Shown in pieces: positions 99 through 22,964 of a stretch of DNA of 24,822 nt (positions are counted from its first letter, which is position 1; every line of letters starts with the position of its first letter). The position numbers and the translations under genes are program-made. Below the pieces are notes generated by a model. It did no database searches. It saw nothing but the letters and a program-made list of their open reading frames with translations, and was not told the DNA's origin. The DNA is taken from the IMG/VR virus record IMGVR_UViG_3300030101_002083, positions 3,041 through 27,862 of that record, one strand, 5' to 3'. The stretch comes from a virus.

Positions 99-3000
99 TT
101 AGTTAGATAGAGCCTTGATCTCTTCTACATATTTTGATTGTATATCACGTTTCTTGTTTATTTGATCTTGTTGTCTTTTGCTTCCTTGTCTTTTTATCCA
201 ATCATTTTCTCCTGCTTCAATAAATTGATTATTAATTTCTTGTAATTTAGTATGAATTTGGTCTACTCCTGTCACTTCATTTAATGCTCCGTTCTTTTTG
301 ACTAGTTCTATGTTTGCTTTGTAGTGTGGGCTTTTGAGATATGTTTTCATAGCGTCATTAATATTTTGACCTGGATATAAAGGATGATTATTTGGAGCTT
401 TAATTGTATTAATAGTCTTTCTTAGCTCTGCATATTCTGTTGTTGTTAATCTAAATGGTTCTACTTGATTACTAGTTGCACTTCCAGTAATAACATCTGA
501 AGGTTCTCTAAGTTCTTTTCCTATAGTTGCTAATGCAGTAAAAATAGGATGATTTTTACTTTGACTTCTTTTTACAAAACTAAGTAAATCTGGACCTGGT
601 TTATCAGGATATAAAACAGGTTCATTAGTTATATGTTCTCTTTGGTAAGGAAGGTTGCCACCATATCCAGCAACAGTTTCTGTGTATTGGTTTAAAAGTT
701 TTCTTAATGCTCTTGCCGCATCATCTTCTTCATTTTTCTTTTCATTCCAAACATCACCTGCTCTAACTTTTGTGTCTCGTTTTTGACGGAATTTTAAGGC
801 ATCAACTTCTTCTTTTGGAACACCAGCCATATCTAATAAATCACCTGGAAGTCTTTTTGCATATCTGGCAAAGTTCCCATAAGGAACTCTAGAAGCAAGT
901 TGTCTAGACCAGAAATTTTCTCTTGATTCTCCTCCTCTTTCATCAGTAAGAGCTTTCATAGCATCGTCAATTTGCTGTAAGTAAGACCTATCAAAAAGGT
1001 TGCGAGTAAAAGCTCCTGTCCATCCAGTAGTAAATTCATCGTATTCGTCATCTGTAAGTACTCCACTAACTACAACAAAATCAGTCATTAAACCAATCCA
1101 AGTAGATAAAGGATCTAATCTTTCGTAAGAATAATATTTATATACTGGCTTTCCATCTTCACCAATTAAAGGTTGTCCAGCTTCATCCTTTTGTAAATAG
1201 CCAACACTATATGGCAACCAACCATTTTTAAGCATGTTTTTCCAAACTGCTCTTCCTTCTTCCTCTTTCCAGTCAGGGCCACCACCAGTAAGAATTACAG
1301 GAGGAACAAAGTTAGGATCTTGCTGCATTAAAACTCCTGCTCCTACTAATGATGCAACTGTTATTCCTAAATCTTGAGATACTTTTAATTGACCTCTAGC
1401 TTGATTTCTAACAATTGGATCAGTACTTTCTAAATCAACTTTAAGTTCTTTTAATGCTTGATTTATAACTGGTGTTCTTCTTAGTTGTCTTTTAATAATG
1501 TTGGTAGGTGCTCTAACAAATGAAAGCAATGTCCTTACCATTGGTATTTGACCAGCTGCACTATTAACTGCTTTTGCTGCTTTTCCAAAATGAAAATATC
1601 CATCATCTCGAATATTTTCTGTAAAAGTACTTCTCTTTGCAAATTCCTGAGATCTTTTTAAAATTCTTGCTGTAACTTTATCCTTTATTCCTTTACCACT
1701 ATTAGAAGCGTAATACTCAATAATTGCATCTAAATGACCTTTAATATAGTTGTCTAATTCTTTTCCTTTAAGTCCTAGTTTTGTTCCTTCCATATGACCT
1801 TGATAATGAACTGAGGCTATTAAGTTAGGAGCTTGAACCAGAGCATCAACAGATGTCATTAGCTGACTAGGAAATCTTATAACTTTTCCACTTCCGTCAT
1901 AAACTCTTGAAAGTATGTCTTTTCCTTCAGAAGATATAACAAATTTTTCTTGATAATCAGCTTTTACAGCACCTCTATTAATCCAGTTATCTGAAGTTTT
2001 AAATGACTCTTTAAAAGCTTTACGAGCAAAACTAGCATTAGAATGTAATGCAAATAAATGTCTAATAGCTGCATCTAATTCTGTTCTGCTACCTGCTCCT
2101 CTTATTAATTCATAAGAAGACATATAAGTTTCAAGAACACCTGAGATAAAGTTTATTTCGTTTGTAGTAGGAGCAGAAAGTAAAGCGTTAATTCCTATTT
2201 CATTAAAAATTCTATTACCCTTGTTAAACATAGATAAGGTTTTATGTAATAGTTTTGTTTCATATAAAGCAGATAACTTTTCTACATTTCCGTTTGTTCG
2301 CTTAATTGTATTAGTAAGTTTATTTAATTTAGTATAGTCACCTGTTTGTTTGCCTTCTTCAAAAGCTTTTAAAAGATTGTCTTTTAACTCTTCTAATTTT
2401 AAACTTTGTTCTGAATCTTTAATAGTAATATTAGTTTGACCAGTACGATTAAGTTTATATTTTTCAGCTGGAGTCATCTTTGCAAATTCTTCTGGGCTAA
2501 CACCTTGTGTTGGTATTTGCATTGACCTAAGACCACGCCCCTGTTCAGTTCTTAAAGGAATACCTAAACGTAACCATTCATCTATTTCACCAATAGATTC
2601 AATTATTTCATTAATATTTTGCTCTATTAGAACTGGATCTTTTGAAACATTAACAGCGTCAATTAGTTTTTGATTTATATCTGCTGTTTTTTGAGTAGAT
2701 AAAGTTACTGCTTCTGCTAAAGCATAATTAAGTTCATCAGTAGGAACTAAGCCATATATCTTTGCATACATTTGTGCATGACTTTTAAGTTTATTTGTAT
2801 TAGACAACATCCTTATTCCACCATCAATAGTGTCTTCTGTTGTTTTTACTGAAGAGAAAGCCCCTGAATCTTTTAACTGTTTAATTCTGTTAACAATAAA
2901 ATTAAATTGACCACTTGTATTACTAACTTGCTCTGGATTGACTTGATGAGGAGTTGTATCTGTACCTTCTAGTGGGCCTTTCTTTTTCTTTTTACCTGGT

Positions 3001-4703
3001 AAATCTGGTAAATCTTTAGTCGATCCTTCAAAATTATTACCTTCTTGTTGTACTTTAAATTCATTTCTTGCCTGTCTTATTTGTCCTGCCATGTCTTCAA
3101 TACCTTCTTCAAGGTACTCATCAAAATCAACTGGTGATTCTAATGGTCCTTTTCTTTGCTTAACTACATTCTTATTTTTAAGAAAGTCGTTATATATTCT
3201 TTGAGATTGTGGACCACCTAATTTAGCTTTAAGGCTGACAAATAAATCTCTAACAAACAAAGAAACTTCTTGTGTAATTCTTTTCCACGTCCCAGAAGGA
3301 GCAAGTTCTAAGTCGTCATCTAGTCTTTCAAGGGATATATCTTTTAAGTTTTCTGCAAAAAATTCATCTATATCTTTAAATCTATAGTTATCTGCTGTGT
3401 ATCCTGTGCCTTTTTTAAACATGTTAAGTTCATTTGTGTATCTTACAAGTTCTTTTTTAGATAAATTTTTATCTTTAATTTTCTTGTTTAAATTAGTAAG
3501 GTAGTTGCGTTTTTCAACTTGGAAATCTTTAGTTAATTTTGCTAAATCTTTTTTAGGTAAATATCTAGAAAGACTATGCCATAACTCATGGATCATAGTG
3601 TCAGTCAGTTGACCTTCATCTATAGTTTTTTGCCTTATTTGAATTAAGTTTGTAGCAAAGTTATAACGCCCTTGTGGACCTATCTTATTTGTTACTGATA
3701 TAGATACATCATCTAAACGATTTGCAAACTTATCTATAAATTTAACTGTATCTTCTGCCTCAATAGGATCAGCACCTTTAACTGGAAACTGTTTAAGTAT
3801 TCTTTTTTTAAGGTATTCAGCACCTCTTCTTTTTTTACCAATACCTCCTGTTTCTAAATCTTGAAATGGTTGAAGCTTTGTATTAATTAGTTGCTCATAA
3901 GTAGCTCCATCAACTATTTGGTCAATCAATCCATCTTCATCTGTATATCCAATATCACCTTCTCTTATTCCTCTAGCAATTTTTTTTGCTTCGTCACTAT
4001 CAGCATTTTTTAATAGTTCTTCTAACCTTGATTTATCTTCATTTGTTATAAGACTATCTATTTCTGCTGCTGATTTACCTTGAAATTTTTTAGAAAGTGA
4101 TCCAAGAAAATCTATTGATCCTTTAAAGCCAGTACCAAGGACAGTTCCCAATGTTGCTGAAGTACCAAGTTCTCCTGCTGTTGGTAATTTTTGTTCATCA
4201 ATAAGTGTTCTACCTGTAGTTTCTGTTGTTGCTGTAGCAGCACCTTGAAGACCTGCACCAGTTAAACCTTTAACACCTTTACCAGTAGATCCAAATGGGA
4301 TCATCTGGGTAAATCCAGCCATTATTGCTTCTCCTTGGCTGATATTTTTTTCTCCTCTAATCTTTTGTGCAGCTAAGTTTGAAGTATATCCAGAACCAAA
4401 ATTAATAACTCCATAAGCCACTCTAGAACCAGGGACAGGAGCTACAAGTAATGGTGCTGTTAAATAATCTGTTGTTATTCCAGTGCCTATCTCAAGACCT
4501 AAACCACCTACTTGTTTAAATGCTTGTTCCGTAATACTTGGTTCTTTAATATATTTCTCTTCCTCATCATTCAAATAGAAGTTATTGATTGGATCTAAAT
4601 TATTTTCCCCTGTCATTAGTTCATCTCTTCTTAAAACAGGTGTTGGTGGATTATCAGAAACAGTGTTCTCTTCCTTCTTAATCATTAAATTTGAATCAGT
4701 CAT
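99..4703 (-). CDS. Giant internal virion (ejection) protein, T7 gp16 position, with HELWH metallopeptidase motif
   Basis: A 1534-aa protein in the position and size range of T7 gp16 (about 1318 aa), the ejected core protein that helps form the DNA conduit across the cell envelope. A Gly/Ala-rich hydrophobic stretch lies near residues 65-160. HELWH is at residues 372-376, followed by EFFAE around residues 447-451; together they look like a gluzincin-type zinc site (two His plus a downstream Glu). The middle is long and helical, and the C-terminal third contains Pro/Gly/Trp-rich segments often seen in large phage-injected proteins. I see no lytic transglycosylase signature here, although T7 gp16 carries one at its N-terminus; in this phage it lies in the preceding gene. 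The gene starts 2 bp after that gene's stop. The ejection role rests on synteny and the protease on the motif only. Confidence 0.8.
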   Translation of the reverse strand: MTDSNLMIKKEENTVSDNPPTPVLRRDELMTGENNLDPINNFYLNDEEEKYIKEPSITEQAFKQVGGLGLEIGTGITTDYLTAPLLVAPVPGSRVAYGVINFGSGYTSNLAAQKIRGEKNISQGEAIMAGFTQMIPFGSTGKGVKGLTGAGLQGAATATTETTGRTLIDEQKLPTAGELGTSATLGTVLGTGFKGSIDFLGSLSKKFQGKSAAEIDSLITNEDKSRLEELLKNADSDEAKKIARGIREGDIGYTDEDGLIDQIVDGATYEQLINTKLQPFQDLETGGIGKKRRGAEYLKKRILKQFPVKGADPIEAEDTVKFIDKFANRLDDVSISVTNKIGPQGRYNFATNLIQIRQKTIDEGQLTDTMIHELWHSLSRYLPKKDLAKLTKDFQVEKRNYLTNLNKKIKDKNLSKKELVRYTNELNMFKKGTGYTADNYRFKDIDEFFAENLKDISLERLDDDLELAPSGTWKRITQEVSLFVRDLFVSLKAKLGGPQSQRIYNDFLKNKNVVKQRKGPLESPVDFDEYLEEGIEDMAGQIRQARNEFKVQQEGNNFEGSTKDLPDLPGKKKKKGPLEGTDTTPHQVNPEQVSNTSGQFNFIVNRIKQLKDSGAFSSVKTTEDTIDGGIRMLSNTNKLKSHAQMYAKIYGLVPTDELNYALAEAVTLSTQKTADINQKLIDAVNVSKDPVLIEQNINEIIESIGEIDEWLRLGIPLRTEQGRGLRSMQIPTQGVSPEEFAKMTPAEKYKLNRTGQTNITIKDSEQSLKLEELKDNLLKAFEEGKQTGDYTKLNKLTNTIKRTNGNVEKLSALYETKLLHKTLSMFNKGNRIFNEIGINALLSAPTTNEINFISGVLETYMSSYELIRGAGSRTELDAAIRHLFALHSNASFARKAFKESFKTSDNWINRGAVKADYQEKFVISSEGKDILSRVYDGSGKVIRFPSQLMTSVDALVQAPNLIASVHYQGHMEGTKLGLKGKELDNYIKGHLDAIIEYYASNSGKGIKDKVTARILKRSQEFAKRSTFTENIRDDGYFHFGKAAKAVNSAAGQIPMVRTLLSFVRAPTNIIKRQLRRTPVINQALKELKVDLESTDPIVRNQARGQLKVSQDLGITVASLVGAGVLMQQDPNFVPPVILTGGGPDWKEEEGRAVWKNMLKNGWLPYSVGYLQKDEAGQPLIGEDGKPVYKYYSYERLDPLSTWIGLMTDFVVVSGVLTDDEYDEFTTGWTGAFTRNLFDRSYLQQIDDAMKALTDERGGESRENFWSRQLASRVPYGNFARYAKRLPGDLLDMAGVPKEEVDALKFRQKRDTKVRAGDVWNEKKNEEDDAARALRKLLNQYTETVAGYGGNLPYQREHITNEPVLYPDKPGPDLLSFVKRSQSKNHPIFTALATIGKELREPSDVITGSATSNQVEPFRLTTTEYAELRKTINTIKAPNNHPLYPGQNINDAMKTYLKSPHYKANIELVKKNGALNEVTGVDQIHTKLQEINNQFIEAGENDWIKRQGSKRQQDQINKKRDIQSKYVEEIKALSN

Positions 4704-4705
4704 AA

Positions 4706-7144
4706 CTAATTAGTTTGTGGTAAAAAGTCTTTGTATTTTCCGCTGGTGTAAGTTGCCCAAGGTTTAAAACCAAAGGTATCAAAAATCATTTTGGCAGCCT
4801 TAGCATTTGTAAGAGGGTTATAAAGTTCTTCATTTGATTGTATTCCAAATTTTTGTCTTCGATCTGTTCCTAGCATATAACCAGGACTATCTTGCATATC
4901 AATCTGCCATAGACCTAATGAAAACTCATTCTTCTTTTCAGGGTCTAATCCTGACTGAACGGTATCAATACCTGCTCTACCACTAGATTCAGCTAATGCT
5001 ATGGCAGCAGCAATTCTAGCGTCTTCTGGTGAGAAGCCTACTTCTTGTGCAAGTCTTTCTAAAGAATTAAAGGTAAAAGGTTTAGTAACATCTATCTCTT
5101 CTAAAACACTTCTATTTGTTAATTGTTCAGCGGAGGCTGATCCCATCAAAAGATTTAAAACTGAATCAATAACACCTGTTGCTGATTCATCTAAATTCTC
5201 TTTTACATTATTTAATTGACTAACAAGTGTTTCCTTATCTTCTTCTTTTAAATTAGATGACTGATTAAAGAGCATTTCAAAAAAACCTTTTTCTTTATCA
5301 GAAGGTTCTTTTTCTTCTTTTATAGGTTCGCTATCTTCAGAAGTTATTTCATCTCTATTTAATTTAGGTCTAGGTGGACCTTCCTCTTTTTCAAAAACTG
5401 TTTCTACAAATTCTCCATCATAGATTTTTGTAGCATCTTCTTCTCCAAATCCATAGTCATCTACAAGTGCTTGTATTCCAGCTTGTCTTTCTATCTCTTC
5501 AGCCTTTTCCTCTTTTTGGTCTGTAGTAAGAAAAGTTCCTTTTGATTTATATGATTTATTATTAATTGCTTCTGCGTCTTGAAAATATTGTGCTTGTATG
5601 TCTCTAAATATATTTTCTCTTTCTTTTAAATCTGTAACACCCCTAAGTTCATCATCAATTCGTCTGTTGATATTAGTCTTTAAATCTATATAAGAATTTA
5701 GCGTGGCTCTATCATCTTTCTCAAATACATTAAAGTCTTCTCCTGTAGCTCCTAGTAATGCTCTTACATCACGGTGCATATCTTTAATTCTTAAATCAAA
5801 GTTTCCAATATTTCTTTTAGAAACACTATCTCTTGCTATTCTTGCTGATTCTTTATATCTTTTGTCATCTTCATCTGTAAATGTTTCACCTATTTGATCT
5901 TTTATATCATCTAGATCATTAAACATTCTTATGCGATCATTACCGTAATAACCAATTCCAACTTTGTAATTAAAGTCATCAAATAATTCATCTCTGTCAC
6001 CAGAATAAATTTCAATTTGCTTAAATAAAAACTCTCTTCTATTTGGATATTGCTTTAATAATTCATCTGCAATAGAATATTTATTAGGGTTTTCTGTAAT
6101 TCTTTTTATAATGTCAGATTCTTCAGCAGCTTCAACTTTGTTAGCTTCTCTTGCTGCTAATTTGTCTTGTGTTTCACCTAGTTCTACTTTAAATTCAAGA
6201 ATATCTTCTCCAAAAGAATCTACCAATAAACGCTGTTTATAAGTTCCATCTTTTTGTTTTTCTTTTGGTCCATGTTTTAGTTTTCCTATCATCTCTAAAT
6301 ATCTCATGGCTGCGTTATATCCATTACCACCTGCTTGTTCGTTAATTTCAAATATCCTTGAAGCTTGATTCTTTGCTATTTCTAATATGTCATCAGGTTT
6401 AACAGCATCACTTAGACCTAAGTTGACAGTTTGTTCTATAAAATCTTGAACATTTACAATTGCTTGATCTCCATTTCCATCTTCATATTCTTGAAAGTTA
6501 GTTAATAATGTTTCTGATAATTGTCCTTTTCTTCTATCTATTTTAAATTCATTGTGGTTTTTTATATGTTCTGCTGTAACTACTTCTATTGCTTTATCTT
6601 GATAAGGTTGAAAAAATTGATTGATATATTTAGGGCTTATTCCTTCTAATGTTTCTGACTTAAGAGCAAAAGATTCTTTTAAAAAACTTTGATACTGTGG
6701 TGAACTTGCATCAAAATGATGAATAGGTTTTGTAACTTCGTTGCCATTTTCTATGACAGTAAAAGTTTTAGATGAGTAAAGACTGCTCATCTCTCTACCA
6801 AAACTTTGACCTGTTAATTTTGCTTTAGTTCTTTCATATGCTCTTTGAGAAAAAATACTTCCACCAATTAATTGTCTAGCAGCTTCTTCACCATCTTTCT
6901 TTTTTATTATCTGACTAACTTTTTTTAAACCTTTTTCTTCTTCTTCTTCTCTTGCTATGTCTTCACCTATCGCTTGTTCATCTTCAATAGCATCATCTAA
7001 TTTAACCTTGATAAAATCATTAATACCTGGATTAACAGTTTTTAAAGCTCTTACTAATTGATCTAATCCATCAGTAGGAGCAACCGTACTAGGACGTACA
7101 AAAGTATCTACTGGTCTTGCTTGTGGCTGAAAACTAGAAGTCAT
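4706..7144 (-). CDS. Internal virion protein, T7 gp15 position, with C-terminal lytic transglycosylase-like domain
   Basis: An 812-aa protein, similar in length to T7 gp15 (747 aa), between the gp14-like and gp16-like genes. Residues 1-600 are charged and helical. Residues 600-665 are a Glu/Lys-rich low-complexity linker. The last 110 residues read as an SLT/lysozyme-like fold: AALAES-type helix with candidate catalytic Glu719 (IALAESSG), then GLWQID, then NPLTNAKAAKMIF, GFKPWATY and SGKY, the usual order in VirB1/SLT enzymes. It would cut peptidoglycan so that the core proteins and DNA can cross the wall. The start ATG overlaps the upstream stop as TAATG. The unusual point is the domain's place at the C-terminus of this gene rather than the N-terminus of the gp16-like protein. 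Confidence 0.82.
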   Translation of the reverse strand: MTSSFQPQARPVDTFVRPSTVAPTDGLDQLVRALKTVNPGINDFIKVKLDDAIEDEQAIGEDIAREEEEEKGLKKVSQIIKKKDGEEAARQLIGGSIFSQRAYERTKAKLTGQSFGREMSSLYSSKTFTVIENGNEVTKPIHHFDASSPQYQSFLKESFALKSETLEGISPKYINQFFQPYQDKAIEVVTAEHIKNHNEFKIDRRKGQLSETLLTNFQEYEDGNGDQAIVNVQDFIEQTVNLGLSDAVKPDDILEIAKNQASRIFEINEQAGGNGYNAAMRYLEMIGKLKHGPKEKQKDGTYKQRLLVDSFGEDILEFKVELGETQDKLAAREANKVEAAEESDIIKRITENPNKYSIADELLKQYPNRREFLFKQIEIYSGDRDELFDDFNYKVGIGYYGNDRIRMFNDLDDIKDQIGETFTDEDDKRYKESARIARDSVSKRNIGNFDLRIKDMHRDVRALLGATGEDFNVFEKDDRATLNSYIDLKTNINRRIDDELRGVTDLKERENIFRDIQAQYFQDAEAINNKSYKSKGTFLTTDQKEEKAEEIERQAGIQALVDDYGFGEEDATKIYDGEFVETVFEKEEGPPRPKLNRDEITSEDSEPIKEEKEPSDKEKGFFEMLFNQSSNLKEEDKETLVSQLNNVKENLDESATGVIDSVLNLLMGSASAEQLTNRSVLEEIDVTKPFTFNSLERLAQEVGFSPEDARIAAAIALAESSGRAGIDTVQSGLDPEKKNEFSLGLWQIDMQDSPGYMLGTDRRQKFGIQSNEELYNPLTNAKAAKMIFDTFGFKPWATYTSGKYKDFLPQTN

Positions 7145-7701
7145 TACGCTTTCTGATAAAGATTTGCATAGCTGGAAAGACCAGTACTGGCTGTTTGTGC
7201 AATGACATCTAACAAACCTCTTTGATTAGCCATTGCTTGATTTCTAGTATCTATTGCTTGATTAGTTCTACCATCTCTTTGTGCTTCTAATCCTTTGACA
7301 TCTCTTCCATATTGTTGTGTAGCTGACTGCATTGTTTGACTTAAAGCATCTTGCCAATTAGCTGCTTGTCTATCTGCATCAGCTAGTAATAAATCTATAG
7401 TCAAACCTGTTCTTTCACTAGCTCTTATTGCTCCTTGTGCTTGTAATCTTTTCTTGCCAACTTCCTGTCTTTCTTGTGCTGACTTCTGTCTCTCTTCTCT
7501 GAGTCTGGAAGCTAAACCTTCTTGCTGTATAGCAAAAGCTTTATTAGCTGATTCAGCTGCTCTTACTGCTGCTTGTCCTTGGTAACTAGCTATTCGATTA
7601 GCTTGCTGCATCTGCATAACTGATGTCACAGCAGATAAACCTAGTGAAGCATAAAATAGTGGAGCGGCTGCTCCTAAAGCTGGTAATGCTGCAACACACA
7701 T
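7144..7701 (-). CDS. Internal virion protein, T7 gp14-like
   Basis: A 185-aa protein close to the length of T7 gp14 (196 aa). It begins MCVAALPALGAAAP, an Ala-rich hydrophobic N-terminus like the MCWAAAIP start of T7 gp14. A long Gln/Ala/Arg-rich helical region follows, with a second weakly hydrophobic segment near the end. T7 gp14 is ejected and forms a channel in the outer membrane. Position (after tail tube B and gp13-like, before the gp15-like gene), length and composition all agree with that role. The start is directly after the upstream stop and the stop overlaps the next start. Confidence 0.8.
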   Translation of the reverse strand: MCVAALPALGAAAPLFYASLGLSAVTSVMQMQQANRIASYQGQAAVRAAESANKAFAIQQEGLASRLREERQKSAQERQEVGKKRLQAQGAIRASERTGLTIDLLLADADRQAANWQDALSQTMQSATQQYGRDVKGLEAQRDGRTNQAIDTRNQAMANQRGLLDVIAQTASTGLSSYANLYQKA

Positions 7702-11626: not shown

Positions 11627-12613
11627 TTAAGATGCAGACAATTTAATTGTAGCTGCTGCTTCTGGTCTTAGGATTCCATGACCAAGAGCATATTTCGCAA
11701 CCATCAACGTACCTTGGTACATAATTCCATAGTCACTTCCACTGATTTCAGTAGTCATGTCCATAAGTTTTACTGTACCAACTGCTGATTTATGGAAGAC
11801 CAAACCAATAGTTTTACTATCATCACCTGAATAGGTGTTATTAGCTCCACTTGGGTTAGATCCAACATTACTTTGTGGCACGTTGTTAGACATCAATACA
11901 GGCATACCTGCAATCTGTTGAACACGACCTGAAGCAAATGAACCATTACCACCTGGGTTAAAATCAGTATCGATAGTACGAGTAGCTGACTCAGGTAACT
12001 TGTAGTATTCGGATGGAGGCAATACAACGTATCTATCTGTAGGAGGTATGTCACGCTCATCAAATGTTTGAGCGATATCATAGATAGCTGCTGCTAACTC
12101 ATCACCAGTAACATTTGCAGATGCAGTGTTACCAGATGCAAGAGTTAAAACAGTACCACCATTACCACCAGATAAAGTAGCTGAACCTCTAGAAGCATTA
12201 GCAATGACTTTTGCTACGTTCTGGTCATAGGTTCTAGCAAGAGCTTTTCCTAATTCAGAAGCATATGTAGCTCTGACATCGTAATGATTTTTTAGCTCAT
12301 CAAGGTTCGTTATAAACGCTTGTGATATGAGGAGATCATCAATAGAGATAATTTTCTCATTAGCCTTGATTTGGTTAGCACCAACTAGAGGGGTTCCTAC
12401 TGTGTGGTAGGCCGCTGTAGCAGTACCTAATACTGGAAACTGAGCTGATTTTCCATTAGAAATAGTTCTTACTGAATGTAAGCTCTCATTGAAAATGTTA
12501 TTTTCTGAGAACGCAGTCAGAACTTCTCCACTGAAAACCTTGAGAAACAAGGCATCAAAATCAGTACCACTATTGTTAACCAAACCAAGGCGTGAAACTG
12601 TGGCGTTAGCCAT
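11627..12613 (-). CDS. Major capsid protein (T7 gp10-like, HK97 fold)
   Basis: A 328-aa protein (T7 gp10A is 345 aa) directly downstream of portal and scaffold genes. It opens MANATVSRLGLVNNSGT. Typical T7-family capsid features follow: LFLKVFSGEVLTAF, a QFPVLGTA segment with NGKSAQFP before it, IDDLLISQAFI, and a late AGMPVLMSNNVP strand. The start has AAGGAAC 6 bp upstream, the clearest ribosome binding site in the late region, and a strong terminator follows the stop; both suit a highly expressed gene. I see no obvious slippery site near the end that would give a gp10B-like extended form. Confidence 0.95.
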   Translation of the reverse strand: MANATVSRLGLVNNSGTDFDALFLKVFSGEVLTAFSENNIFNESLHSVRTISNGKSAQFPVLGTATAAYHTVGTPLVGANQIKANEKIISIDDLLISQAFITNLDELKNHYDVRATYASELGKALARTYDQNVAKVIANASRGSATLSGGNGGTVLTLASGNTASANVTGDELAAAIYDIAQTFDERDIPPTDRYVVLPPSEYYKLPESATRTIDTDFNPGGNGSFASGRVQQIAGMPVLMSNNVPQSNVGSNPSGANNTYSGDDSKTIGLVFHKSAVGTVKLMDMTTEISGSDYGIMYQGTLMVAKYALGHGILRPEAAATIKLSAS

Positions 12614-13832: not shown

Positions 13833-14024
13833 TTAACCTTTAGAGGTGGAAATAGTGTTACCTTTTCTAGTTTTATATTCTACTTTTTGTGGTGTGTCAG
13901 TATTAGGTTCAGGAGAAAGTCTACTGACTACAGCATTAGCAGAAGTATCTTCTATTGCTTTTGCTGCTTTGGGTTTTGGTGTTTCTATCTGTTCAGTTTT
14001 CTCAGTTGGTTTCTTGGTTGGCAT
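13833..14024 (-). CDS. Small Lys/Thr/Pro-rich protein (63 aa), function unknown
   Basis: A 63-aa ORF that starts inside the last 23 bp of the portal gene, with GGAG 8 bp before its ATG, and ends 3 bp before the scaffold start. It is rich in Lys, Thr, Pro and Ser, with KVEYKTRKGNTISTSKG at the C-terminus, and is probably disordered. I do not recognise a family. The plus-strand ORF covering the same interval is a shadow. Placement, ribosome binding site and coupling support it as a gene. Confidence 0.65.
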   Translation of the reverse strand: MPTKKPTEKTEQIETPKPKAAKAIEDTSANAVVSRLSPEPNTDTPQKVEYKTRKGNTISTSKG

Positions 14025-15585
14025 CAGTTTGCTCCGTTAGTTGTTGTGCTTGTGCGTTGTTTTTAGGATCCATTAAAGGAGAGCCTAAAGCAGCTGGTCC
14101 TAAATGTTGAATCAGCTGTTGTTGTTGTTGTGCTTGTAGTTCTTGTTGAATTTGCTCTTGTGTCTTAACTAGATTAGCTGTATCTATACCAATTGAGTTA
14201 GCTAATCTCTTAATTGCCTCATCTACATTCATATATTGCCTCATAATATCTGGTCCTAATGCTTGAGAAACTGTACCGATAAATTCAATAAGTTTATTTC
14301 TATCGTTACCTCTACCAAGACCTTGAAGACCAGTAACTATCTTAGGTTTAACTATCTTATCTGGTAACTTAGGAGCCTTACCACTACGAGTAAGCATGTG
14401 CATCCTTCTCTTTAAATAAGGAAGCTGAAATTCTTGAGTCAGTATTGAATATATTCCTCCCAGACTATTTTCCAGCTCATTTGCCATCATTGATACTTCA
14501 GCAGCGGTCACTCTTTCTGCATCTCTTTGTACTGACCTAGCCATTAAAAAAGCGTATTCAAGTCTTCCTTCTATACGTTGAATAGCAGAAAAAGATACTT
14601 GAAAATCTGCTCCTTTATTTACTTGCAGAACAGAAACATCATTAGCAGATCCTTCTCTTATTGCACCATTAGGTGCTTTGGCTAAGGTTGCTGCTCTAGT
14701 AACACCATTAGGATTAACAAGGAATAAAGTCTTAGCACTAGCAGCTGCACCTTCAATAATGGCTTGCATCAATGCTTCTAAACTAATTAAATCTCCTTGA
14801 TATTCTTCTACATATCCTCTTCCATAATCTTCTCCATCAATTCTTGTCCACCGTAAACAAATCCAAGGTGAGACATCAATTTTAGATTTACCATCAGTAC
14901 CTGGAATTCTTTCACCTTTACATTCTTGATGCCACATAAAATCATCACCATGTCTTTTTATGCATGTATAAATATCTAAATCTTCATCAAAATCTTCAGC
15001 ATCGTAATTTTCTTTCTCTTTTATTTTTGCTAAAAATTCTGGTGGCAGTGCTTGTGGATGTATAGTTTCTTTTGTAATAATTTCTAGAACATTTCCTACA
15101 TCATCACGTTTACAAACATACCTATCAAAGTGATAAACTTTTAAACCTTTGTCAGTTAAATAAAGAAGAACATTACCGCCAACAATTAAATGCTTTAGTG
15201 CTTCAAACATTGCAACTCTATCATTACTAACTTCTATTTCATTCATCAGAGCATTTTCTATAACCCTTAGACCTTTATCTATTTCAGTTTCTAATCCTTC
15301 TTGTCCTTCTTGAAGTAAAGCAAGACTATCAATACTTAATTTAAAGAAAGGAGTACTAGGAGGTAAAAGAGCAATTAATAATTTACTAGCTAAAGAATTA
15401 CATCCTCTAGCTCCTACTGCTTGAAAAGGTGTTTTTAACTTTGCTGCTGTACCTACGGTAGATTCTGGTATTAATGCAGGAAGAGTTAACTTAGAAGCAT
15501 CTCTAGCTCTTCTTAAAAAAGTAGAACGATTACTTTCTAGTTGCTCATACCTAGCAACAGCTGTCTGTTCCTTAACTAGTTCCAT
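14002..15585 (-). CDS. Portal / head-tail connector protein (T7 gp8-like)
   Basis: A 527-aa protein close to T7 gp8 (536 aa), which forms the dodecameric DNA entry and exit channel. Family features include RARDASKLTLPALIPE near the N-terminus, the LASKLLIALLPPSTPFFKL segment around residues 65-85, the WTRIDGEDYGRGYVEEYQGD block near residues 245-265, and AERVTAAEVSMMANELENSL followed by GGIYSILTQEFQLPYLKRR. The C-terminus is Gln-rich (about residues 485-525), which is normal for this family. It follows a small protein gene with a 2-bp gap and overlaps the next ORF by 23 bp. Confidence 0.95.
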   Translation of the reverse strand: MELVKEQTAVARYEQLESNRSTFLRRARDASKLTLPALIPESTVGTAAKLKTPFQAVGARGCNSLASKLLIALLPPSTPFFKLSIDSLALLQEGQEGLETEIDKGLRVIENALMNEIEVSNDRVAMFEALKHLIVGGNVLLYLTDKGLKVYHFDRYVCKRDDVGNVLEIITKETIHPQALPPEFLAKIKEKENYDAEDFDEDLDIYTCIKRHGDDFMWHQECKGERIPGTDGKSKIDVSPWICLRWTRIDGEDYGRGYVEEYQGDLISLEALMQAIIEGAAASAKTLFLVNPNGVTRAATLAKAPNGAIREGSANDVSVLQVNKGADFQVSFSAIQRIEGRLEYAFLMARSVQRDAERVTAAEVSMMANELENSLGGIYSILTQEFQLPYLKRRMHMLTRSGKAPKLPDKIVKPKIVTGLQGLGRGNDRNKLIEFIGTVSQALGPDIMRQYMNVDEAIKRLANSIGIDTANLVKTQEQIQQELQAQQQQQLIQHLGPAALGSPLMDPKNNAQAQQLTEQTDANQETN

Positions 15586-16059: not shown

Positions 16060-16791
16060 TCATGGGGTCCATAGTTCTACCTCCTTAGTTTTGTAGTTAA
16101 AATCTCCTTCTCGTAAAATGCGAGAAAGACGTGCAGTAAGGATTGCATCAGCGAAAGTTTGTTTCTTTTTTTCGTATGCTTCTACTACTTTGTCCCACAT
16201 ATCAGGCAAAGTTTTTGCATCACCTAAAATCTTATCTGCTGTAACAGGACCACAACCAATTAAACCTTTAAAATTATCTGTACTGTCTCCAGTTAAAGCC
16301 TGAATCATCCAGTGTCTATCAGCTTTTTTCTTAGTAATTAGTTCCATATCATCATTAGCAATAAGAGTACAGGGAACAGTTTTCATATCTTTATCAGGAG
16401 AAACAACAATAGAGTTTGAATATTTTTTTGATGTAGCAAGAAGACCTAATACATCATCACCTTCTAAACCTGTATAAGAAACTGACTCATATCTTTGTTG
16501 TATTTGTTTAACAATTCCATATAAAGCTAATGGTTTACGTTTGTTCTTTCTATTAGCTTTGTATTCAGGAAATATTTCATGTCTAAATGTTGGGTACTCA
16601 GTAAAGCACATGACAACATCAGTTTTATCATCAGCAATGTTTTGGTAATACTCAATACGACTATCAATCATTTCATGTATATCTCTTTCGTCACAATGAA
16701 GAGTATGTAGGTTTTCATCCCACTTAATGTCTTGCTCACAGCTGCAACAAGAAGAATAAATTAACCAGTCAGCATCAATTAATAAGGTCAT
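16060..16791 (-). CDS. 5'-3' exonuclease (T7 gp6-like, FEN/XPG nuclease fold)
   Basis: A 243-aa protein (T7 gp6 is 300 aa), which removes RNA primers and degrades host DNA in T7. The metal-binding motifs are clear in order: LLIDADW (Asp6, Asp8), FPEYKANRKNKRKP, LEGDDVLGLLAT, VVSPDKDMKT and LTGDSTDNFKGLIGCGPVTA (the helix-hairpin-helix part). The end LSRILREGDFNYKTKEVELW matches the T7 gp6 C-terminus in pattern. It follows primase-helicase by 2 bp, although in T7 the DNA polymerase gene lies between them. With no polymerase encoded nearby, it must act with a polymerase from elsewhere. Confidence 0.93.
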   Translation of the reverse strand: MTLLIDADWLIYSSCCSCEQDIKWDENLHTLHCDERDIHEMIDSRIEYYQNIADDKTDVVMCFTEYPTFRHEIFPEYKANRKNKRKPLALYGIVKQIQQRYESVSYTGLEGDDVLGLLATSKKYSNSIVVSPDKDMKTVPCTLIANDDMELITKKKADRHWMIQALTGDSTDNFKGLIGCGPVTADKILGDAKTLPDMWDKVVEAYEKKKQTFADAILTARLSRILREGDFNYKTKEVELWTP

Positions 16792-16793
16792 GT

Positions 16794-18413
16794 TTAAGCA
16801 CCAAAATAAGTGGACATAGGAATAGAAAGACGGCCAGTATTTTCGTCATACAGAAGCTTATCTATTGGTCCCGTAGAACCAGTATGTCTGTTCTTCAAAA
16901 TCCTTAGTTGCATTTCAGATCGTTCAGCAGGATCTCCTTGTTGATTTCTTTCTGCTGAAATACATAAATCTGATAATTGTAAAATTGCAGAACTTCCTCT
17001 TAAATCTGAGGTTGAAACCTGGCTGCCCTGTTCATGTGATACACCTTGTGGTCTTCTTAAATGAGAAACTAAAATAATTGCAACACCAGTATTTTCAACT
17101 ACCTGTCTTAATTTTGTACAAGTAATATCAATAGCTCTTCTCTCATCTACATCAGCTAATCCAGAGATAACAATAGTTAGATGATCAAGAATAACTACAT
17201 CAACTCCTTCTGCTGTAGCCATGTATTGAATTTGTTCTATCAACCTATCTGGTTCCATTGAACCGAAATGGTCATAGAGAAATAATTTTTCTGTACCAAA
17301 TAATTTATCAAAGGCTGATTTCAATCCTTCTACTTCTTCTATCTGTTCTTCTAAATGCAGAGGCTTATTAAGTTCTATACCTAAGATACCCTGCATTGTT
17401 CTTTGTACTGACTCTTCTAAAGCTATATATCCAACAGTCAATTTATTCTTTAAAAAGTGATGAGCTAACTCTCTACACAAACTTGATTTACCAGTACCTG
17501 ATCCAGCACAGATAGTAACCATTTGAGATTTACGAAAACCTCTCGTAAACTGATCTAACTTTGGGTATGGGTATGGACAAACAGAAGTTGCTCCTTCTTT
17601 AGTTAATTCTTCCCATAGATCATTTGCATTTAAGATTGAATCCGGTCTAACAGGTGTTGCTTTCCACAGCAGACTTTTAAGTTCCTCTCCTTCACCTGCG
17701 AGGAGCATTTCATTAGCATCTTTTCTTGGTAATCTGCATATAGCTGCTTTTCCAGCAGGTAATATTTCAATTGCTTTTTCTGCTGCTTGGATACCAGGTT
17801 CATCTGAGTCGAAGCAAAGAACAATCTTGTTGAATTGATTTAGCCATTTTAAATTTGCAGCTAAATACTTATTAGCAGACTGAGCACCAGATGGCAGAGA
17901 AACTACAGGAAATTTATTACCTTGTACCTGTGAAATAGACATAGCATCTATCTCTCCTTCAGTAATTACAGCAAAAATGTTTCCGTAACTTCCGTGTTGT
18001 CGCCATAGTTTTTGTCCCCATAACTGTACATTTTTACAGTCACCAACCCATATAAATCTTTTATCTTTAAACCTTATATGTTGTGCTGACTGTCTACCTA
18101 ATTGATCTTCATAAGTAGCTACTTGTACAGGAGAGCCATTGTAATCAGCTATTCCATAATTAAAAAACTTAGCAGTTTCTTCTGTAATACCACGTTTAGG
18201 AAGTTCTTTTGGCGTGACAAATTTTATTAATGGTGAAGTCACTTGTGTAGATGAATAATAAGTTTTGCGTTTGTGTTTTGTTTCAGTAGGAGCTGGCACT
18301 CTGTAACTACAGCCAAAGCAAAAAGCATGACCGTCTGAATAAACAGCAAGATTGTCTTTGCTGCCACAGTTAGGACAGGGTTCTTTCCTGACGTACTTGT
18401 TTGTTTCTGTCAT
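16794..18413 (-). CDS. DNA primase-helicase (T7 gp4-like)
   Basis: The protein is 539 aa from the ATG at 18411-18413 (T7 gp4A is 566 aa). A TTG 18 bp upstream would add six residues, but the ATG has GGAAGG just before it and is preferred. Domains in order: an N-terminal zinc ribbon (CPNC near residue 13, CFGC near residue 32), a TOPRIM primase region with VITEGEIDAMSI and IVLCFDSDEPG, and a RecA-like helicase with Walker A GSGTGKS (Lys309) and Walker B VVILDHLT. A SHLRRP and SDLRGSSAILQLSD segment follows, typical of gp4. It unwinds DNA and makes primers at the fork. The C-terminus lacks a clearly acidic tail like the one T7 gp4 uses to hold DNA polymerase. Confidence 0.95.
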   Translation of the reverse strand: MTETNKYVRKEPCPNCGSKDNLAVYSDGHAFCFGCSYRVPAPTETKHKRKTYYSSTQVTSPLIKFVTPKELPKRGITEETAKFFNYGIADYNGSPVQVATYEDQLGRQSAQHIRFKDKRFIWVGDCKNVQLWGQKLWRQHGSYGNIFAVITEGEIDAMSISQVQGNKFPVVSLPSGAQSANKYLAANLKWLNQFNKIVLCFDSDEPGIQAAEKAIEILPAGKAAICRLPRKDANEMLLAGEGEELKSLLWKATPVRPDSILNANDLWEELTKEGATSVCPYPYPKLDQFTRGFRKSQMVTICAGSGTGKSSLCRELAHHFLKNKLTVGYIALEESVQRTMQGILGIELNKPLHLEEQIEEVEGLKSAFDKLFGTEKLFLYDHFGSMEPDRLIEQIQYMATAEGVDVVILDHLTIVISGLADVDERRAIDITCTKLRQVVENTGVAIILVSHLRRPQGVSHEQGSQVSTSDLRGSSAILQLSDLCISAERNQQGDPAERSEMQLRILKNRHTGSTGPIDKLLYDENTGRLSIPMSTYFGA

Positions 18414-18492
18414 TAGCCTTCCAATGTTCAATTAATGCTTGAAGTTCTAAAATTCTTTCTTCAGCTTTTTCTATACGTTTTTTGTTATTCAT
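18370..18492 (-). CDS. Possible small helical protein (40 aa) overlapping the primase start
   Basis: A 40-codon ORF whose ATG (18490-18492) overlaps the endonuclease I stop as TAATG and whose end overlaps the primase-helicase start by 44 bp in another frame. The peptide begins MNNKKRIEKAEERILELQAL, an amphipathic, charged helix, then IEHWKAN. It fills the otherwise empty 78 bp between endonuclease I and primase-helicase. No ribosome binding site is evident, so translation would depend on coupling. It may be real or a chance frame; I do not recognise a family. Confidence 0.45.
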   Translation of the reverse strand: MNNKKRIEKAEERILELQALIEHWKANDRNKQVRQERTLS

Positions 18493-18956
18493 TAGAACCA
18501 ATCAGCAGGAATTGTTTTATGACACCAGAGAAACCCATTCTTAGTAGCCCATTGCCCATAAGTAAGGCTTCTCTTTTTGCCACGACTTAGTTTTGTCTTT
18601 GCGTTTTGAAAGCAGAAACGTATATCTAAACTGGGATTTGCCTCCTTAACCGCAACCATTTTTCTTCTGTCTTCTGGAGAGAAGAAGCCTTTAGTTTCAA
18701 TAATGATCCCGTTGTTAAAGATAAAATCAGGCTTGTAACTGCAACTGAGAATGTATTTAAGTTCAATGGATTCATAACTAAAGGCAACTTTGTTTTTGTT
18801 AAGGGTAGCGGCAATTCCAGCTTCAAATTTACTTCTGTACTTTTGTTTAGAACTCGTCTCCTGCAACTGCTGTTTGTGCTTGGAACTCTTGACTTTGTTC
18901 TTGCGGCTCTTCTGTTTGAAAACCATAGCCAGTTGCACTTCTTGAGTATTCAACAT
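18492..18956 (-). CDS. Endonuclease I, Holliday-junction resolvase (T7 gp3-like)
   Basis: A 154-aa protein (T7 gp3 is 149 aa) that resolves branched DNA and helps break down host DNA in T7. Catalytic residues align: Glu45 (RSKFEAG), Asp77 (YKPDF), Glu87 and Lys89 (IETKG). The 10- and 12-residue spacing from Asp to Glu and Lys is identical to T7 Asp55, Glu65 and Lys67. The N-terminal 40 residues are very basic. They are encoded inside the 3' end of the SSB gene (110-bp overlap from the first ATG, or 80 bp if Met11 is used); Glu45 lies only 23 bp past the SSB stop, so an overlap of some length is needed for a complete N-terminus. Confidence 0.93.
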   Translation of the reverse strand: MLNTQEVQLAMVFKQKSRKNKVKSSKHKQQLQETSSKQKYRSKFEAGIAATLNKNKVAFSYESIELKYILSCSYKPDFIFNNGIIIETKGFFSPEDRRKMVAVKEANPSLDIRFCFQNAKTKLSRGKKRSLTYGQWATKNGFLWCHKTIPADWF

Positions 18957-19479
18957 GGTTTTTAATCATTACTGCTTCAGGTTGAATTTTGATTCCAACT
19001 CCAAAGGCAGGAGTTTCCCAACCGCTACAACGTAGGTTGACTTGTCCTGTTGTACCTGGACCACATTTGTTAACAACAACTTTTTGACTGTCTGACATAA
19101 CAGAACCATCAGCGTTAAATAATGTTGGTGGTCTGTTTTTCCATTGCGTACCGTCAGGTCTGTTACCACCTACTTTCATCTTGGCTTTAATTTTAAAATA
19201 ACCTTTGGTTTCTCCTCCATCAGTTACTTCTTCAAAGCCCCAAGGCAAAGCAGCAAGTTTAAATTTCTTACTTGGTTGAGCAGTTTTTAGTTGTGCCTTC
19301 CATCTGTCAAGAAGACCAGTTAATTGTTGTTCAATTTCCTGTGATTCTTCTGGATCTATTAGGCAAGTAATTCTCCATTCACCCATAGGATCAAACTTAG
19401 TGTCTGGTTCTACAAGCCATGCAAATTGAAACTTACAAATTGGTGTGGTGACGTTTAGAATTTCAGATTTGAGATTCAT
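18847..19479 (-). CDS. Single-stranded DNA-binding protein (T7 gp2.5-like)
   Basis: A 210-aa protein (T7 gp2.5 is 232 aa) in the T7 order just before endonuclease I. An OB-fold-type beta-rich body includes APICKFQFAWLVEPD-like and WRITCLIDP strands. The C-terminus is acidic and ends in GDEF; T7 gp2.5 likewise ends in an acidic tail with a final Phe that contacts its DNA polymerase and helicase. That tail is retained although no T7-type polymerase is encoded here. Its last 110 bp double as the coding region for the basic N-terminus of endonuclease I. Confidence 0.88.
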   Translation of the reverse strand: MNLKSEILNVTTPICKFQFAWLVEPDTKFDPMGEWRITCLIDPEESQEIEQQLTGLLDRWKAQLKTAQPSKKFKLAALPWGFEEVTDGGETKGYFKIKAKMKVGGNRPDGTQWKNRPPTLFNADGSVMSDSQKVVVNKCGPGTTGQVNLRCSGWETPAFGVGIKIQPEAVMIKNHVEYSRSATGYGFQTEEPQEQSQEFQAQTAVAGDEF

Positions 19480-19581: not shown

Positions 19582-21993
19582 TCAACTAAATACATAAGGA
19601 GCTGACATAACTTCCTCAATATCAAAATCTCCTATTTTAGGTATTGGTGGTAATTTACTTGGATCATCTAGCTGAATAGAAACCTGATCATGTATATCAT
19701 TTAATACATTATTTTTATATATTTGTATAAAACTTTCTTTTGCACAAGAAATAAAATCTTCTATTTGTCCTGCAACGGCTCCATAACAATCATGCACTGT
19801 ATATACCTGATCTATACCTCTACTTTTTGCTTTTTCTAATGCTAAATGTACATTTGCAGCATCCATGCTATGAACAAAATTAGCCGGAAAACTTTGTATT
19901 GATCTTCTTTTATCTACTTTATTTAGATCTTCTAATAATGTAAGTCTTATTGTACTATGACCCATTTGTGTTTTTATTTTCTTACTAACAGTTTTTTTAT
20001 AACTTTGTTTTACTAAAAAATTAGATGGAGTTAACCATTCTATCTGTTTGTCTTCTCTTGTAAAACATTTACCTAATTTATTTAAATAAGACATAACTTC
20101 AGTAGAAGATGGACAAATGTTTGCTACTGATTCTTGTATCATTTCTGCTAAATAATGATAATGTTTAAATGTTTGTGTGCCCCAAGGTACATCTATATTA
20201 TTTTTTACTAAATATTCTTTTAAACATAAAGCTATACCATAAATAGTACCTGAATAAGGTATCATCATTATTGGTTTTTTTATTAGCTTTCTTGTTATAA
20301 ATTCTCTATGATTAAACCAATCTTTTGCATATGGTCTTTCATCATTTGATAAACTAAATATTAAATTAGTTCTTATATTCTCATATAAATCTTGTGGCTC
20401 TTCTGACTTACATAAATTGACTGAAGCAGCTAAATGTTTATCTAAAACCATAGCAGCAAAGTGTTGATATCCATTATTAGTTCCATCAAGCATTACTGGA
20501 TGATGACTAATAAATCCATATCCTTCTTCATCTAATCCATTCATATCTAAACACCAGCTAAGAAACTGAAAAGGCTCTTCTGCTTTACTCCATAAACTTA
20601 CATAATTTTCAGGATTACCAGCAACATTTCTAGCTATATGTATTCCTTCATTGTTAGCCCATTCTATTCTTTCTTTATAACTAGCTTTAGTCATGCCCCA
20701 ATGATTAGCACCAGCAATACAAAGCCAATTTCTATCTTTTTCATCTCTTATTGGAGCACCTTTTTTTAACTTATGTAATCCTCTTGTCAAATCATTTCCT
20801 TGTGGATTAAATGAACCTGATACTGCATATAAACGACCAGTAAAATCAGCTTGGTGTACATGAAAAAAAGATTTAGTACGATAATATTCAGCAGTATCTA
20901 AAATAGTTAAACATTGGTATCTTTTTGCTCTATCATGTGCATTTGTATCATGTGTAATTGATGCTTCTCTTTTCCATTTATTTTTTGCATCATCATTAGT
21001 ATTGATATCAAATGGTTTAGGAGGTATAGGCAATGGTTCTGCATCTATTAAGCCACCAACTTGTGTGTTTGTATTCCAGCAATAATTAGCAGCTTCTAAA
21101 ACAGGTTCATTTATACCATTTTCAGTACCTTGTAAAACATTTAATGCAACATAAAAAACTTCAGGGTTTTCATCATCAAATTCTTTTGAATAATCATCTC
21201 CTTTTGTTTTAACAGCTTTTATACTATTTAGTCTTTCTGTATAAAATCCACCATCAGCAAAGTTAGACCAGTTCTTAGGTTGAATAAGACAAGGCATTAG
21301 CAATGGATAAGCAGCTAATCTATTAGTTTTTTGTCTCTTTATCCAAGCCAAGCTACCTTCCGTAAATTCTAAATAAGTTCTCTTTGTTTTATTAAATAAA
21401 TACCCTTTATTAATTAATTTTACCAGGCCAACTGATTTCATTAATAGGTCAATTAATGTTAAACCTACTCTTAGTTTGTCTTCTTTTTTCCAAGGTTCAA
21501 ATTTATATCCTTTGTTTCTCATATGACCTAAAACCATAGCTCTTCTATATCCATAATGTTTTGTATCACTAATATGAGTTTTTAATATTTCAAAGTATCT
21601 TGGATCATCTTTATTAAATGTAGAAAACTTAATTTCATCTTCTAATAAACTTCCTATCTTTACAGCTACAACAGCAGCAGAAGTTTTGTATTGACTAACA
21701 TTATCTAAAATTACTTTAAAAGCTATATATGCAACAACATCAATATCACTAAATTTTTGCAATAGAATTGCAGCTCTAGCTTTTCTTCCTGGCGTTGCTC
21801 TCCAAGCTCTATCTATAAACTTACCAATTTCTTCTACATAAGGTTGTAATCCTGCATGCATCATAGAAATTGCATAGGGATTATCTGATTCCCTACCTTT
21901 TTCTATGTTGTGTTTTATACGACTGGTATAAGCATCAAAAGCTCTACCAGCCATTTCATTTTCATGCTCTATTTGTAATTTAGTTTGATCCAT
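19582..21993 (-). CDS. Single-subunit DNA-directed RNA polymerase (T7 gp1-like)
   Basis: An 803-aa protein (T7 RNA polymerase is 883 aa). Catalytic residues can be matched to T7: Asp503 in MLDGTNNGYQHF (T7 Asp537), Lys572 and Tyr580 in KKPIMMIPYSG (T7 Lys631 and Tyr639), and Asp735 in VHDCYGAVAGQ (T7 Asp812, usually HDSFG). The FPANFVHSMDAANV segment fits T7 PNFVHSQDGSH. RADFTGRLYAVSG-type sequence (QADFTGRLYAVSG) is also present. It would transcribe the middle and late genes from phage promoters. It is the last gene of the early block, 2 bp after a small gene. HDC in place of HDS is a small deviation from T7. Confidence 0.97.
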   Translation of the reverse strand: MDQTKLQIEHENEMAGRAFDAYTSRIKHNIEKGRESDNPYAISMMHAGLQPYVEEIGKFIDRAWRATPGRKARAAILLQKFSDIDVVAYIAFKVILDNVSQYKTSAAVVAVKIGSLLEDEIKFSTFNKDDPRYFEILKTHISDTKHYGYRRAMVLGHMRNKGYKFEPWKKEDKLRVGLTLIDLLMKSVGLVKLINKGYLFNKTKRTYLEFTEGSLAWIKRQKTNRLAAYPLLMPCLIQPKNWSNFADGGFYTERLNSIKAVKTKGDDYSKEFDDENPEVFYVALNVLQGTENGINEPVLEAANYCWNTNTQVGGLIDAEPLPIPPKPFDINTNDDAKNKWKREASITHDTNAHDRAKRYQCLTILDTAEYYRTKSFFHVHQADFTGRLYAVSGSFNPQGNDLTRGLHKLKKGAPIRDEKDRNWLCIAGANHWGMTKASYKERIEWANNEGIHIARNVAGNPENYVSLWSKAEEPFQFLSWCLDMNGLDEEGYGFISHHPVMLDGTNNGYQHFAAMVLDKHLAASVNLCKSEEPQDLYENIRTNLIFSLSNDERPYAKDWFNHREFITRKLIKKPIMMIPYSGTIYGIALCLKEYLVKNNIDVPWGTQTFKHYHYLAEMIQESVANICPSSTEVMSYLNKLGKCFTREDKQIEWLTPSNFLVKQSYKKTVSKKIKTQMGHSTIRLTLLEDLNKVDKRRSIQSFPANFVHSMDAANVHLALEKAKSRGIDQVYTVHDCYGAVAGQIEDFISCAKESFIQIYKNNVLNDIHDQVSIQLDDPSKLPPIPKIGDFDIEEVMSAPYVFS

Positions 21994-22381: not shown

Positions 22382-22617
22382 TAGTTGCTACCTCCTTGTA
22401 CTTGAAGATTCCACTCACTTAAAGATGTCCAAGATAAACCTGTAACACCTTCTAAAAGTTCTCCATCTTCGTTGTACTCACGAATACTTACATAAACATT
22501 AGTTGGATCATTAGCGTAAAAATGAAATCCATTAATGCGAAATTCAGCACCATGAGGATTAGTTAATAATGCTCCTTTCAGAATGTTTAAATCAAAGGAT
22601 GATGTTTGTAAATCCAT
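22381..22617 (-). CDS. Small early protein (78 aa), function unknown
   Basis: The frame is open 51 bp further upstream, but the ATG at 22615-22617 is preferred because AAGAGGAA lies just before it and it overlaps the upstream stop as TAATG. The 78-aa product looks like a small beta-rich fold: FRINGFHFYANDPTNVYVSI, then REYNEDGELLEGVTGLSW. No family recognised. It lies between the zinc-ribbon gene and another small early gene, all coupled. Confidence 0.72.
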   Translation of the reverse strand: MDLQTSSFDLNILKGALLTNPHGAEFRINGFHFYANDPTNVYVSIREYNEDGELLEGVTGLSWTSLSEWNLQVQGGSN

Positions 22618-22964
22618 TAGTTTTTCCTCTTGAGTAGTTTTTTGTGTTTGTTTACTTGTCCAGCCCATGAAAGCAGCTCTTCTAGTAAATCTGATACTTC
22701 AGCAGCAATAGAAGCTAAGTGTTTTTCACTTCCTTCTAAATCTCCTGCTTCTTTTTTTACCCCAAGCATGATTGATTGAAGTTTTTCTACCTCATATTCC
22801 CTAGTAGAAAACAAGTGGTTGCATTTAGTACACCGCCTCCTTCTACGGATATATGGTGTTTGTCCTGTATTTCTTGTCTCCACTGAAGGAGCATCAGGTA
22901 TTTTTTCTTGACCTGCTCCAGTGGATACAAAACTTACAGAACCACAAGAAGGGCACTTAAGCAT
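22617..22964 (-). CDS. NrdR-like zinc-ribbon protein without ATP cone (115 aa)
   Basis: The N-terminal 60 residues carry a zinc ribbon: CPSC (Cys4, Cys7) and CTKC (Cys45, Cys48), with the second pair inside IRRRRRCTKCNHLFSTREYE. This closely resembles the DNA-binding ribbon of NrdR (VRRRRECxxCxxRFTTxE), the repressor of bacterial ribonucleotide reductase genes. NrdR's ATP-cone domain is absent; instead residues 60-115 are a charged helical tail ending KHKKLLKRKN. It is inferred to bind DNA or RNA, perhaps as an early transcription modulator. Whether it acts on host NrdR sites is unknown. It begins 2 bp after the 53-aa membrane protein gene. Confidence 0.75.
   Translation of the reverse strand: MLKCPSCGSVSFVSTGAGQEKIPDAPSVETRNTGQTPYIRRRRRCTKCNHLFSTREYEVEKLQSIMLGVKKEAGDLEGSEKHLASIAAEVSDLLEELLSWAGQVNKHKKLLKRKN

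Follow-up and report, generated by a model that had tools for sequence, protein, structure and literature searches.

The MPP-C cyanopodoviruses, which have genomes of ~37-38 kb and infect Prochlorococcus MED4, were described by Cai et al. 2022 as a lineage without DNA polymerase (PMC9860041). The same study reported a very high abundance of polymerase-less T7-like phages in surface oceans (PMC9860041). In T7, the acidic tail of the primase-helicase gp4 binds basic patches of the DNA polymerase gp5 (PMC12593628; PMC5997990).

Here we analyzed a stretch of 24,822 nucleotides of viral DNA (the window), which corresponds to bases 3041-27862 of a virus record of 27,862 bp. It derives from the genome of a T7-like (Autographiviridae) marine phage related to known Prochlorococcus phages. 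We consider it very likely that this is a polymerase-less genome of the MPP-C lineage and that the phage primase-helicase works with a host polymerase, most likely Pol III.

Gene organization of the window

The main genes all lie on the minus strand, in the order small early genes, RNA polymerase, single-stranded DNA binding protein (SSB), endonuclease I, primase-helicase, exonuclease, portal, scaffold, capsid, tail tubes, and internal virion proteins. The single-subunit T7-type RNA polymerase and the T7 gene order assign the window to the Autographiviridae. The features discussed below are as follows.

19582-21993, minus strand: T7-type single-subunit RNA polymerase (PF00940, E 1e-83; catalytic residues kept)
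18847-19479, minus strand: gp2.5-like SSB, ending in VAGDEF (phrog_112, E 6e-19)
18492-18956, minus strand: endonuclease I, T7 gp3-like (PF05367, E 3e-33)
16794-18413, minus strand: primase-helicase, T7 gp4-like, ending in TGRLSIPMSTYFGA (phrog_239, E 1e-174; motifs; tail comparison)
16792-16793, minus strand: 2-bp junction, the site of the DNA polymerase gene (gene 5) in T7-like phages (read from the sequence)
16060-16791, minus strand: 5'-3' exonuclease, T7 gp6-like (phrog_107, E 6e-59; PF02739)
14002-15585, minus strand: portal protein (74.5% identical to the P-SCSP2 portal and 50% to the P-SCSP1u portal)
11627-12613, minus strand: major capsid protein, used in placement (90% identical to that of P-SCSP2)

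An earlier note on this DNA had listed SSB, endonuclease I, primase-helicase, and exonuclease in T7 order, and all four were recovered by profile searches (phrog_112, PF05367, phrog_239, and phrog_107, respectively). The endonuclease I gene and the end of the SSB gene overlap in different frames, and a motif check found the zinc-binding, toprim, and DnaB-type helicase domains of the primase-helicase intact. The note had also placed the primase-helicase and exonuclease genes 2 bp apart where gene 5 belongs, as can be read directly from the sequence: the primase-helicase stop codon TAA, which ends at 16794, is followed by AC and then by the exonuclease ATG, which starts at 16791.

The same order of SSB, endonuclease I, primase-helicase, and exonuclease is common to T7, P-SSP7, HTVC031P, HTVC168P, HTVC119P, and CRP-125. 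However, these phages have gene 5 between the primase-helicase and the exonuclease, unlike the window. The MPP-C isolates of the P-SCSP1 subgroup and P-SCSP2 share with the window the T7 gene order, the lack of DNA polymerase, a primase-helicase adjoining the exonuclease, a neutral helicase end without the acidic Phe tail, and a Phe-ending SSB. Near-complete relatives have genomes of 37-38.5 kb.

Search for a DNA polymerase gene

No DNA polymerase family match was found among the window proteins searched, as the earlier note had claimed, and the source record and its relatives were negative too. The profile search that the note had proposed was run on the record and its relatives with profiles for family A, B, and C polymerases and primase-polymerase, together with a phage polymerase query (HTVC168P), and found none. 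PF00476 matched neither the 27,862-bp source record nor any of 33 related records, which include a 10-kb fragment. PF07733, PF00136, and PF09250 had no match in 23 records of the clade, and the HTVC168P query had no match in any of 23 clade records. The HTVC168P query did recover the gene in the positive controls T7, P-SSP7, CRP-125, and HTVC168P, which indicates that the search works. The T7-type replisome comprises gp4, gp2.5, and gp5 with thioredoxin; its phage-encoded family A DNA polymerase, gp5, was not found in the source record or its relatives by profile searches, nor in the clade records by the query search.

The source record is partial (27.9 kb), as it has no terminase region; its left 3 kb, outside the window, is the remainder of a tail-fibre gene. 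Because the record is a fragment, the absence of a polymerase from the whole phage rests on near-complete relatives. The records searched include a near-complete relative of 38.5 kb (G002), compared with ~37-38 kb for MPP-C genomes, and the complete genomes of P-SCSP1u and P-SCSP2. G002 is a 38,477-bp contig whose primase, portal, and capsid proteins are 95%, 96%, and 88% identical to those of the window, and it carries the terminase large subunit, integrase, RNA polymerase, structural module, and tail fibres. No polymerase-like protein was found among the G002 proteins searched. Its ORFs from the terminase to the RNA polymerase gene, integrase excepted, are shorter than 120 aa, and the large ORFs in the rest of the contig encode proteins of the virion or for packaging, or else small late-region proteins (185-323 aa).

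One of the several ORFs without an assigned function might encode a polymerase too divergent for recognition. However, searches for four polymerase families gave no match, and the sizes and roles of the G002 ORFs speak against it, which makes this explanation very unlikely. A polymerase beyond the reach of the profiles used retains a slim chance. The earlier note had suggested either a host polymerase or one encoded elsewhere in the genome. The second part is improbable because none of the near-complete relatives has such a gene, and we infer the first.

Tyr639 of T7 RNA polymerase selects ribonucleotides. It is highly improbable that the single-subunit RNA polymerase also serves as the DNA polymerase: although a member of the same polymerase superfamily and different from T7 at the residue beside the selecting Tyr, it retains the Tyr639 equivalent and the other catalytic residues. 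P-SSP7, which has a DNA polymerase, shares the change at position 640, so this change is no signature of DNA polymerase activity. The window, P-SCSP1u, P-SCSP2, and P-SSP7 have Ser or Asn here in place of the Gly of T7, perhaps a cyanophage trait.

The polymerase-free junction in related phages

Among loci fetched by primase similarity, 162 had the primase-helicase followed by the exonuclease with no polymerase between them. The gap between the two genes was -4 to +8 nt in 151 of these loci and 81-852 nt in the remaining 11. As a few contigs were counted twice, the 162 loci represent ~155 independent contigs. The earlier note had named an assembly deletion at the junction as a possible refutation, in which case the real phage would have a polymerase gene. 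The source is indeed a metagenomic contig, but the occurrence of the same polymerase-free junction in ~155 contigs and in sequenced isolates reduces the probability of this explanation to almost nothing.

The longer junction inserts were also considered as hidden polymerases and rejected: those identified encode a thymidylate synthase (ThyX), a DNA methylase, and a Mom-like protein, and three others had no Pfam match, the ORFs extracted from them being no longer than 195 aa. The Mom-like DNA modification protein (PF25680, E 4e-42) lies between the primase-helicase and exonuclease genes in loci L029 and L030, and the DNA methylase lies at the junction in L008. By these annotations, the old polymerase site also hosts predicted DNA-modification genes.

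The deeper members L061 and L062 carry thyX. In CRP-125, which has a polymerase, a thymidylate synthase gene lies between the polymerase and exonuclease genes. This position, together with the ThyX insert at the junction, would fit a deletion of the polymerase gene from such an ancestor.

Phylogenetic placement

The closest isolates by primase identity were the P-SCSP1 phages (60%), the uncultured phage MedDCM-OCT-S08-C159 (59%), and P-SCSP2 (56%). Other T7-like phages followed at ~46%; most were marine roseophages and pelagiphages, and a polymerase gene was present in those phages whose annotation was examined. The window differs from the MPP-C isolates in its primase (only 60% identity to P-SCSP1u and 56% to P-SCSP2), and it comes from a metagenomic record. 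MedDCM-OCT-S08-C159 (Jalkavirus, GU943031) resembles the window in that the exonuclease directly follows the primase-helicase and no polymerase occurs in its 10-kb fragment. However, its helicase ends in YENDFADL, and it grouped with P-SCSP2 in a first primase tree.

The capsid protein was 90% identical to that of P-SCSP2 and 49% to that of P-SCSP1u, and the RNA polymerase was 41% and 26% identical, respectively. The genomes are therefore mosaic, and the window represents a separate, mosaic subgroup. We built a tree of 68 primase-helicases after trimming the C-terminal tail. The polymerase-less sequences all fell into one clade (support 100/100), and the smallest clade uniting the P-SCSP1 and P-SCSP2 isolates with the window had support of 100/97. 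One change of polymerase status was enough in all bootstrap trees checked. Since the polymerase-less phages form one clade, a single loss of the polymerase gene in the ancestor that they share is the simplest explanation. The window is a further subgroup of the published MPP-C polymerase-less cyanopodovirus lineage, in keeping with the earlier note, which had suggested membership in such a lineage; its nearest isolates are the MPP-C phages P-SCSP1 and P-SCSP2, in the same clade of the primase tree.

The G+C content in deeper branches (L051, L055, and kin) was 55-62%, unlike that of high-light Prochlorococcus, and other hosts are therefore likely for these branches. A search of genome contigs for a host lead found no relative. 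To judge from the wider clade, the phages overlooked by polymerase-gene surveys extend beyond the Prochlorococcus isolates.

C-terminal tails of the helicase and SSB

We defined an acidic Phe tail as a terminal Phe with a net charge of -2 or lower over the last 15 residues and compared distinct tails. Such a helicase tail was found in 75 of 96 distinct tails from polymerase-bearing phages (mean charge -4.6) and in 0 of 48 from polymerase-less phages (mean charge +0.15); two of these 48 end in Phe but are neutral. Polymerase-bearing T7-like phages thus usually have the tail, HTVC119P-type phages excepted. The window helicase, which ends in TGRLSIPMSTYFGA, has no acidic Phe tail for gp5 docking, and the CRP-125 helicase ends in TGRMIETDDPNTAFGDGMDEDF. 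The polymerase-less helicase ends are neutral, with a recurring aromatic residue near the terminus (YFG, FFG, TFG, NFL), and their length from the TGR motif has a median of 14 residues versus 19 with polymerase.

The SSB ends in Phe in all 65 distinct polymerase-less tails, with a weaker mean charge than in polymerase-bearing phages (-2.2 vs -5.1). The window encodes a gp2.5-like SSB with this C-terminal Phe tail (phrog_112; VAGDEF), so the earlier note was correct about its presence. However, the tail did not hold up as a pointer to a polymerase: it is kept with or without one, its use is therefore independent of the phage polymerase, and it offers no argument for a hidden polymerase. The tail that is missing is that of the helicase, the second site of contact with the polymerase in T7.

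Polymerase status changed once on the tree, so that the link between helicase tail and polymerase is one event with no independent replicates, and the test of tail against polymerase, with one independent pair only, has no power. The deletion of the polymerase gene may also have clipped the end of the primase-helicase gene, in which case the tail would have gone with the deletion and not because docking became useless. To this explanation we assign somewhat less than an even chance. The primase-helicase end abuts the exonuclease start in nearly all members, and the polymerase-less C-terminus is the shorter one; however, the remaining end is neutral with a recurring aromatic residue, and members with inserts of 81-852 nt have regained no acidic tail. 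Under either scenario, the tail stayed absent throughout the polymerase-less clade.

No report of helicase tail loss was found in the literature searched (open-licence papers only), and the terms C-terminal, acidic, and phenylalanine are absent from the main text of PMC9860041. The matched absence of the helicase tail is a modest addition to the published polymerase-less lineage, as is the breadth of the clade. It provides a concrete, testable handle on how the abundant polymerase-less T7-like phages of the surface ocean copy their DNA, and it might serve as a sequence marker by which fragments of such phages are recognized.

In the Votkovvirus-type phages L099, L270, L312, and L313, in which the polymerase is present, the helicases end in HSEL, FNEL, or HEEI with no terminal Phe, which limits the link between helicase tail and polymerase. 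The SSBs of these four phages end in DFI or DFL, which places Phe in the penultimate position. Both tails appear to have changed together in these phages while the polymerase was retained.

Proposed replication mechanism

The zinc-binding, toprim, and helicase motifs are intact, and unwinding and priming are therefore probably performed by the phage. With no phage polymerase, synthesis almost certainly comes from a host polymerase. We propose that the phage primase-helicase would unwind and prime the genome, gp2.5 would coat the single strands, and a host polymerase, most likely the replicative Pol III holoenzyme and less likely Pol I, would synthesize DNA. Endonuclease I and the exonuclease would act on host DNA, primers, and concatemers, as their T7 counterparts do.

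On general grounds, we judge Pol III, the processive host replicase, to be the more probable partner, with some reservation. Recruitment of Pol I instead is doubtful. It belongs to the same polymerase family (family A) as T7 gp5 and was listed as an option by Cai et al. (PMC9860041), who proposed the same options for the source of the polymerase. However, Pol I is a repair enzyme of low processivity, and the polymerase-less helicases lack the tail at which gp5, the T7 family A polymerase, docks.

As the polymerase-less helicases have no acidic Phe tail, coupling between the helicase and the host polymerase would occur by other means or be loose. It is conceivable, though unlikely, that after a single loss of gene 5 the clade rewired its primase-helicase, so that the neutral aromatic end now contacts a part of the host replisome (e.g., the sliding clamp or Pol III); if true, this would be a mixed phage-host replisome, biochemically not yet described. 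We also considered the helicase end (RLSIPM, RLKLPLF) as a clamp-binding hexapeptide and rejected it: the resemblance is faint, the key Gln is missing, and the assignment would be a guess.

Other genes in the window and its relatives

P-SCSP2 was reported to have no recognisable endonuclease (PMC9860041). At ~5185-5622 (plus strand) of P-SCSP2 (L090, OM416780), we observed an unannotated open frame that overlaps the SSB gene and shares 48% identity with the endonuclease I of the window across 153 aa. The integrase gene of G002 (L106 6080-7027, plus strand) lies immediately upstream of the RNA polymerase gene, where the window has no integrase.

An early gene of the window (22617-22964, minus strand) encodes an NrdR-like zinc ribbon (PF22811, E 1.6e-7) with no match to the NrdR ATP-cone, and it has relatives in G002 (L106 5391-5681) and P-SCSP2. 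Its product might act on the control of host ribonucleotide reductase. In addition, three proteins encoded at 99-7701 (minus strand) match or resemble T7-type internal virion proteins (phrog_6651, phrog_15746/805), and the middle one has a C-terminal lysozyme-like domain. Unannotated genes of P-SCSP2 align with all three and are thus candidates for an internal-core role.
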